Source: Betaproteobacteria bacterium
GTDB taxonomy: Bacteria > Pseudomonadota > Gammaproteobacteria > Burkholderiales > SG8-39
Assembly (NCBI GenBank): GCA_012274205.1
Contig: JAAOZY010000130.1
Location: forward strand, 1 to 32,823
Direction: 5' to 3'
Length of the DNA: 32,823 nucleotides
The position numbers and the translations under genes were made by a program. Positions within the stretch are counted from its first letter, which is position 1; every line of letters starts with the position of its first letter. This document shows, piece by piece, positions 10,003 through 27,112 of the stretch. The notes beneath the pieces are model-generated. The model saw only the letters and a list, made by a program, of their open reading frames with translations. It ran no database searches and was not told the DNA's origin.

Positions 10003-10112
10003 GAACCCGTTGCAAAAATGAAATTTTGCAACGCCCAATATAGGGGAGTATGAGGGGAGGTCCCCCAGGGGGACTTCCTTTGGGGCGTATCCCCTCATTT
10101 TGCAACGGACTC
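10003..10112 (+). repeat. Copy 1 of ~109-bp palindromic dispersed element
   Basis: gaacccgttgcaaaaatgaaattttgcaacgcccaatataggggagtatgaggggaggtcccccagggggacttcctttggggcgtatcccctcattttgcaacggactc; terminal inverted repeats CCGTTGCAAAA/TTTTGCAACGG. Confidence 0.93.
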
Positions 10113-12442: not shown

Positions 12443-12551
12443 GAATCCGTTGCGAAATGAAATTTTGCAACGGCTGATATAGGGGAGTATGAGGGGAGGT
12501 CCCCCAAGGGGACTTCCTTCGGGGCGTATCCCCTCATGATGCAACAGACTC
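12443..12551 (+). repeat. Copy 2 of ~109-bp palindromic dispersed element
   Basis: gaatccgttgcgaaatgaaattttgcaacggctgatataggggagtatgaggggaggtcccccaaggggacttccttcggggcgtatcccctcatgatgcaacagactc; begins at the nucleotide after the cyclase stop codon. Confidence 0.93.
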
Positions 12552-26969: not shown

Positions 26970-26993
26970 GGTCCGTTTCCTGTTTTGTAGTTG

Positions 26994-27102
26994 GAGTTCA
27001 TTTCAAAACGAGGGAATATCCCATGTGGGGACTTCCTTCGGGGCGCATCCCCTCATTCTCCCCTAGATCAGAGGCCATTTCAGTAATTCTGAAATGGCAT
27101 CT
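26994..27102 (-). repeat. Copy 3 of ~109-bp palindromic dispersed element (divergent arms, inverted centre)
   Basis: Minus-strand: AGATGCCATTTCAGAATTACTGAAATGGCCTCTGATCTAGGGGAGAATGAGGGGATGCGCCCCGAAGGAAGTCCCCACATGGGATATTCCCTCGTTTTGAAATGAACTCCAA; aligns end to end with copies 1 and 2; perfect 10-bp hairpin at 27074-27098. Confidence 0.88.
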
Positions 27103-27112
27103 TGGATAAGGC

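Follow-up and report, generated by a model that had tools for sequence, protein, structure and literature searches.

ISLrh, of the IS1031 subgroup of IS5, has an exclusive 3-bp TNA repeat and a terminal inverted repeat (TIR) that starts GAACCTGT (PMC12016507), and bacterial MITEs such as QMITE2 of Coxiella and MITEAba12 are short, gene-less elements with TIRs and a target duplication that occupy intergenic locations and have stable secondary structure (reviewed in PMC10969869). High-copy intergenic palindromes with variant stems and loops have been described as REP/REPIN and GTAG/CGTC repeats (PMC3116915, PMC3733652). The homogenisation of arms and the inversion of the spacer are documented products of template switching (PMC8604942), which has also been treated in connection with hairpin maintenance (PMC8794818).

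The window (the whole stretch of DNA analysed, 32,823 nucleotides) contains three copies of a repeat that has points in common with each of these systems. The copy under study, copy 3, is a complete element on the minus strand (26994–27101) and is very probably one copy of a high-copy family of non-autonomous DNA transposons, that is a MITE, with IS1031-like ends. Like described MITEs the family is short and non-coding, with TIRs, a target-site duplication and many dispersed copies, and its duplication is the 3-bp TNA of the IS1031 subgroup. With ISLrh it further shares the TIR start GAACC(T/C)GT (GAACCCGT here as against GAACCTGT) and ends of the form G..C inside CTNAG, although the TIR diverges beyond the first 8–9 bases and the present elements carry no transposase gene, none with these ends having been found in the genus. 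Departures from the described bacterial MITEs are the inverted copy that adjoins the left TIR, the occurrence of three TIR types on one core, the inserts nested within loops, and the presence of these TIRs on a second, unrelated core.

Reading on the minus strand, copy 3 begins with a type-B left TIR, GATGCCATTTCAGAAT (27086–27101), which together with its inverted copy forms hairpin 1 (27074–27098), with a perfect 10-bp stem and a 5-nt loop that is TAATT as read on the plus strand. The conserved core AGGGGAGAATGAGGGG, as defined by the family alignment, occupies 27049–27064, and the fold places hairpin 2, with a stem of the AATGAGGGGA..TCCCTCGTT type, at 27008–27057; its loop region (approximately 27016–27048) holds a 27-nt module in reverse orientation. 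The right TIR (26994–27009) reads inwards on the plus strand as GAGTTCATTTCAAAAC. The target-site duplication is TTG (CAA on the element strand), present at 27102–27104 on the left-end side and at 26991–26993 on the right-end side, in keeping with the family-wide TNA duplication. The match of copy 3 to the family covariance model (CM) is C239:26987–27108, with a score of 73.9 bits and an E-value of 5.9e-16.

Copy 1 (10003–10112) and copy 2 (12443–12551) are type-A elements on the plus strand, flanked by CGA and CAA and by TAG and TGA, respectively, and all three copies are genuine members of one family (CM E-values of 6e-16 to 2.5e-17). An earlier, sequence-only reading of the window had proposed that copies 1 and 2 carry one arm at three places and that all three are replaced together in copy 3. 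The 10-bp stem of copy 3 can be seen directly, as that reading described it (GCCATTTCAG and CTGAAATGGC, at 27074–27083 and 27089–27098), and the terminus TTTTGAAATGAACTC is also present, in a minus-strand reading; this terminal arm is the right TIR. The threefold arm is exact in copy 1 (GTTGCAAAA, TTTTGCAAC and TTTTGCAAC), whose right TIR matches its left arm exactly, but copy 2 has only two such arms (GTTGCGAAA and TTTTGCAAC) and a partial third, ATGATGCAACAGACTC. The third position is not replaced in copy 3, where TTTTGAAAYRAACTC is simply the right end usual in this family; the contrast drawn between copies 1 and 3 was overstated at this position, since the right end of copy 3 is common and the perfect three-way identity of copy 1 is a minority state, seen in 8 of the 67 copies of type A.

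The CM, built from 42 compact copies, matches the genome to which the window belongs at 148 places (E≤0.01). The assembly, of 3.86 Mb, is a draft MAG that is 86.9 % complete with 7.07 % contamination; the survey of its copies is based on hits of DNA searches and retrieval of the matching regions. In a search of 60 relatives the family was present in all 14 genomes of the genus, this one included, at no fewer than 25 copies each (counted up to 70 per genome), and it was sporadic in other genera of the same taxonomic family, some of which have 1 to 32 copies, while 24 other families of the order gave zero matches to the CM. Among named records, the exact core is found in MAGs labelled Burkholderiales, Proteobacteria and Thiobacillaceae. 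A plasmid search yielded zero matches to the element, no Rfam family matched the window at gathering score, and a literature search did not find the family described.

Elements are about 85–220 bp long, and none of the ORFs listed for the stretch is gene-like within the element. From one flanking CTNAG to the other the order is left TIR, its inverted copy, core CYGATATAGGGGAGYAYGAGGGGA, loop, TCCCCTCRT and right TIR; the loop between core and TCCCCTCRT is 7, 34, 55 or 76 nt, and it is the insert in this loop that sets the element length. Hairpin 1 is thus made up of the left TIR and the inverted copy next to it, and hairpin 2 is formed by the (A/G)YGAGGGGA..TCCCCTCR(T) core, with the right TIR closing the element. 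The right stem shows a T-A/C-G exchange (ATG..AT in 65 copies, ACG..GT in 30) with few mismatches. RNA folds of copies 1–3 on the sense strand have z-scores of −3.2 to −4.2 and are better than 200 of 200 shuffles, and in an arm-agnostic search 111 of 165 copies had a hairpin scoring at least 8 on the upstream side of the core, compared with 0.6 % of shuffles. A mixed-type MAFFT/RNAalifold alignment misaligned the inner arms of types A and B and recovered only hairpin 2, and the arms were therefore placed in register by type profiles.

The TIRs are imperfect and about 16 bp long, and the left and right ends align in 146 copies, with the consensus GARNCCRTTKCARAA. When the 17 flanking bases on the two sides were compared, left and right agreed at exactly three positions, corresponding to TNA (z of 2.7, 5.7 and 2.8), with no agreement outside it and neighbouring positions near 0. 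The trinucleotides on the two flanks are identical in 45 of the 146 copies from this genome, where 19.6 would be expected, and in 21 of the 53 from other genomes, where the expectation is 8.4. Insertion thus duplicates 3 bp, TNA, usually within CTNAG; in most copies the flank match is decayed or absent, which is expected of old copies, yet makes for weaker evidence. The site orthologous to that of copy 3 is empty in three genomes of related species (G013, G010 and G005). The G013 locus is exactly as long as the copy 3 locus once the element and one TTG are taken away, the flanks being about 91 % identical. TIRs, TNA duplication and empty site are what characterises a DDE-type transposon that lacks its own gene.

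Two other accounts of what copy 3 is can be set against this. The sequence-only reading had itself allowed that copy 3 might be an unrelated hairpin adjoining a partial repeat, and its middle segment is indeed only 81 % identical to that of copy 1; but its CM match spans the full length and 50 copies in the same genome share the type-B left end, the core and the right end, so that the probability of this account is close to nil. That the repeats are of the REP/REPIN type, moved by a RAYT (Y1) enzyme, would be in line with their being short, palindromic, intergenic and of high copy number, and Y1_Tnp genes are present in 11 of the 14 genus genomes. TIRs and a TNA duplication are foreign to REP, however, and the target duplication and the empty site contradict such an origin, which we regard as very improbable; REP/REPIN and GTAG/CGTC repeats have no TIR/TNA signature, and no RAYT link was found here. 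A link proposed from fuzzy matches to the family core near Y1 genes was rejected as chance, since all but one of these matches have 4 mismatches and controls behave alike.

The left arms of the 146 parsed copies fall into discrete types, A (CGTTGCA, 67 copies), B (CATTTCA, 50), C (CGTAACA, 28) and D (1), and 53 copies from other genomes comprise 21, 19, 9 and 4 of these, respectively. The sequence-only reading had suggested looking for such types among all copies, and they are there, with A, B and C dominant and recurring in other genomes; copy 3 is of type B (ATTTC). On alignment the arms GAACCCGTTGCAAAAT, GAGGCCATTTCAGAAT and GAACCCGTAACAAAAG appear as variants of one TIR rather than as unrelated arms. 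Covariation between the left arm and the inner arm of hairpin 1 is strong (z of 6.7–15.5 at variable positions, and of 9 to 15.5 at t6, t7, t9, t10 and t13) and is replicated in the copies from other genomes. The left arm also covaries with the right TIR at t7, t9 and t10 (z of 5.9, 9.2 and 7.5), replicated elsewhere for t7 and t9 but not for t10. These z-scores count copies rather than events, so that related, non-independent copies overstate the number of events, and they mostly mirror the three types.

Changes private to single copies within a type separate the two relationships. Of 48 such arm changes, 16 are matched in the inner arm (2.3 expected), 32 having no compensation, whereas only 8 are matched in the right TIR (7.3 expected). 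In each copy the hairpin arms therefore evolve as a pair, and the link of the right end to them exists at subfamily level only. This is also apparent in the right-end motifs, which are GTTTC or ATTTC in 36 of the 67 type-A copies and GTTGC in only 8, while type B has ATTTC in 30 of 50. Of the concerted change at three positions that had been proposed, the part concerning the two hairpin arms holds and the part concerning the right terminus, which ignores private changes, does not; the apparent replacement is a combination of hairpin-arm co-evolution, itself probably through template switching, and of subfamily TIRs. We note that L109 (G000:C197:13843–13926) and G000:C199:638–818 are tandemly repeated elements, and that in L109 a unique hairpin arm, CTTTGCCAAAT/ATTTGGCAAAG, is combined with a type-C right end, the arm having changed and the right end not.

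Template switching by the polymerase during replication, repeatedly homogenising the palindrome, would make the inner arm follow the left TIR, and we consider it a fairly likely cause of the arm pairing. It would also account for inverted loop inserts such as that of copy 3, and the gene conversion between arms envisaged in the sequence-only reading would fit the two hairpin arms in this same form. Among the 16 compensated changes 7 are transversions, which favours template switching, since G-U intermediates cannot bridge transversions. The hairpin 2 loop insert lies forward in 38 cases and reverse in 15, copy 3 among the latter, each of the three types having both orientations, and the hairpin 1 loop is inverted in two type-A copies (L122 and L138). 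Against a plain inversion, reverse inserts retain their AG..AT edges, and inversion of a whole loop would need a further change. As in quasipalindrome homogenisation by template switching (PMC8604942, PMC8794818), arms change together and the loop can invert, although here the process is deduced from copies of a mobile family rather than observed as an event.

The element would be moved by a transposase of the DDE class and IS5/IS1031 kind that is provided in trans and recognises both TIRs, and the match of left and right TIRs at the level of type would reflect either such recognition or common descent. No element-encoded or partner IS1031-type transposase was identified by PF13340 and PF01609 searches of the genus genomes, and searches of the 14 genus genomes (PF13340; PF01609 with TIR inspection; TIR patterns) and, by one TIR pattern, of 99 genomes of the family did not reveal any autonomous IS with such ends, the genomes searched being draft MAGs. 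The one-pattern search brought to light a second element family (L351 and L357–L365; G006 and G012), about 165 bp long, which has the same TIRs and CTNAG target, no hairpin 1, and a REPIN-like core unrelated to the first, TGTCATTCCGA..GAGGAATCTGC..GCAGATTCCTCG..TCGGAATGACA. Some loose-pattern matches that resemble elements of the main family belong to this second one. Since the second family has the same ends without hairpin 1, hairpin 1 is not needed for such end pairs to spread. Two of its members, L365 and L363, are of type B at the left end and of type A at the right, which suggests that one enzyme accepts both A and B ends.

Two further explanations of the arms are selection for RNA structure and transposases of differing specificity. 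Were the elements mRNA terminators, stabilisers or processing sites at gene 3′ ends, the paired changes would be compensatory; the folds, far better than those of shuffles, are consistent with this, as is the fact that the tail of rarer arms outside the main types still pairs (for example in L109, L112, L022 and L236), and elements are faced by 160 gene 3′ ends as against 113 gene 5′ ends, at a median distance of 4 nt. By gene calls from a simple codon model made for this analysis, none of the 146 elements lies inside a gene, and 70 (about 48 %) abut a stop codon, the element ending exactly in the stop codon on the left in 45 cases and on the right in 25. However, of 67 non-coding CTNAG sites located away from any element, 28 (42 %, a similar rate) also coincide with a stop codon, so that the position at gene ends needs no function, and a terminator or mRNA role as its cause was rejected, target availability being sufficient. 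TNA trinucleotides are stop codons on one or other strand, and insertion at TNA is therefore harmless. Moreover, copy 3 has no terminator consensus, copy 1 prefers a fold of left TIR with right TIR over hairpin 1, and there are zero Rfam family matches; selection on RNA is thus a minority possibility, rather less probable than template switching. The sequence-only reading had also raised a sequence-specific partner with more than one specificity. A transposase fits the part concerning a partner, since it would bind the two ends, and the existence of three discrete types, with left and right matching at type level (ATTTC/ATTTC in B, GTAAC/GTAAC in C), could indicate two or more transposases of different TIR specificity, each type being a separately mobilised subfamily. 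Type A does not conform, with GTTGC on the left and GTTTC or ATTTC on the right in most copies, and the mixed ends of L365 and L363, which probably are read by one enzyme, weaken the idea of several specificities; no transposase was found, and we regard separate enzymes as unlikely. With template switching and subfamily TIRs as the preferred reading, arm covariation in repeats can arise separately from homogenisation of a palindrome and from subfamilies of transposon ends, and should not by itself be taken as RNA selection. Within one genus a single core is here combined with three TIR types and a single TIR set with two unrelated cores, which makes a natural data set for questions of MITE end diversification, the strictness of IS1031-type transposases, and the upkeep of hairpins by template switching in bacteria.

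Hairpin 2 frequently has a 27-nt unit, GTCCCCCAAGGGGACTTCCTTCGGGGC, in its loop; a 21-nt unit, TCCCGTCAAGCGGGATCGAGA, may sit in the apical loop of the 27-nt unit, and another in the loop of the 21-nt unit. Examples are seen in L009, L040, L063, L097 and L203, in the window at 27016–27048 (reverse) and in the loops of copies 1 and 2, with 27-nt units in tandem in L063, L073 and L203. In computed folds each insertion point falls within the host hairpin's apical loop or on its edge, and in 527 kb of sequence from this genome both units occur only inside elements. The 27-nt unit is also present in hairpin loops of the second family (L361 and L365), and so occurs in hairpins of two unrelated element families. 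It is conceivable, although we hold it doubtful, that the 27-nt and 21-nt units are the smallest mobile modules and that hairpins grow by nesting, giving the loops of 7, 34, 55 and 76 nt; mobile loop modules and interchangeable TIRs would then amount to a modular, hairpin-targeted assembly of short repeats.

Other small hairpins are also present. At 592–677 of the window the sequence CCCCGCGAGAAGCGGGGCTTTCTTT, which forms a small hairpin and ends in a T-rich tail, is repeated three times in tandem at a spacing of about 30 bp; as far as seen it has no relation to the element family. Near position 1445 of L002, on the minus strand, a hairpin with the arm AGACCGCAACAAG lies by a weak core-like stretch and adjoins a type-A element, and is possibly a decayed or distant relative of the family.
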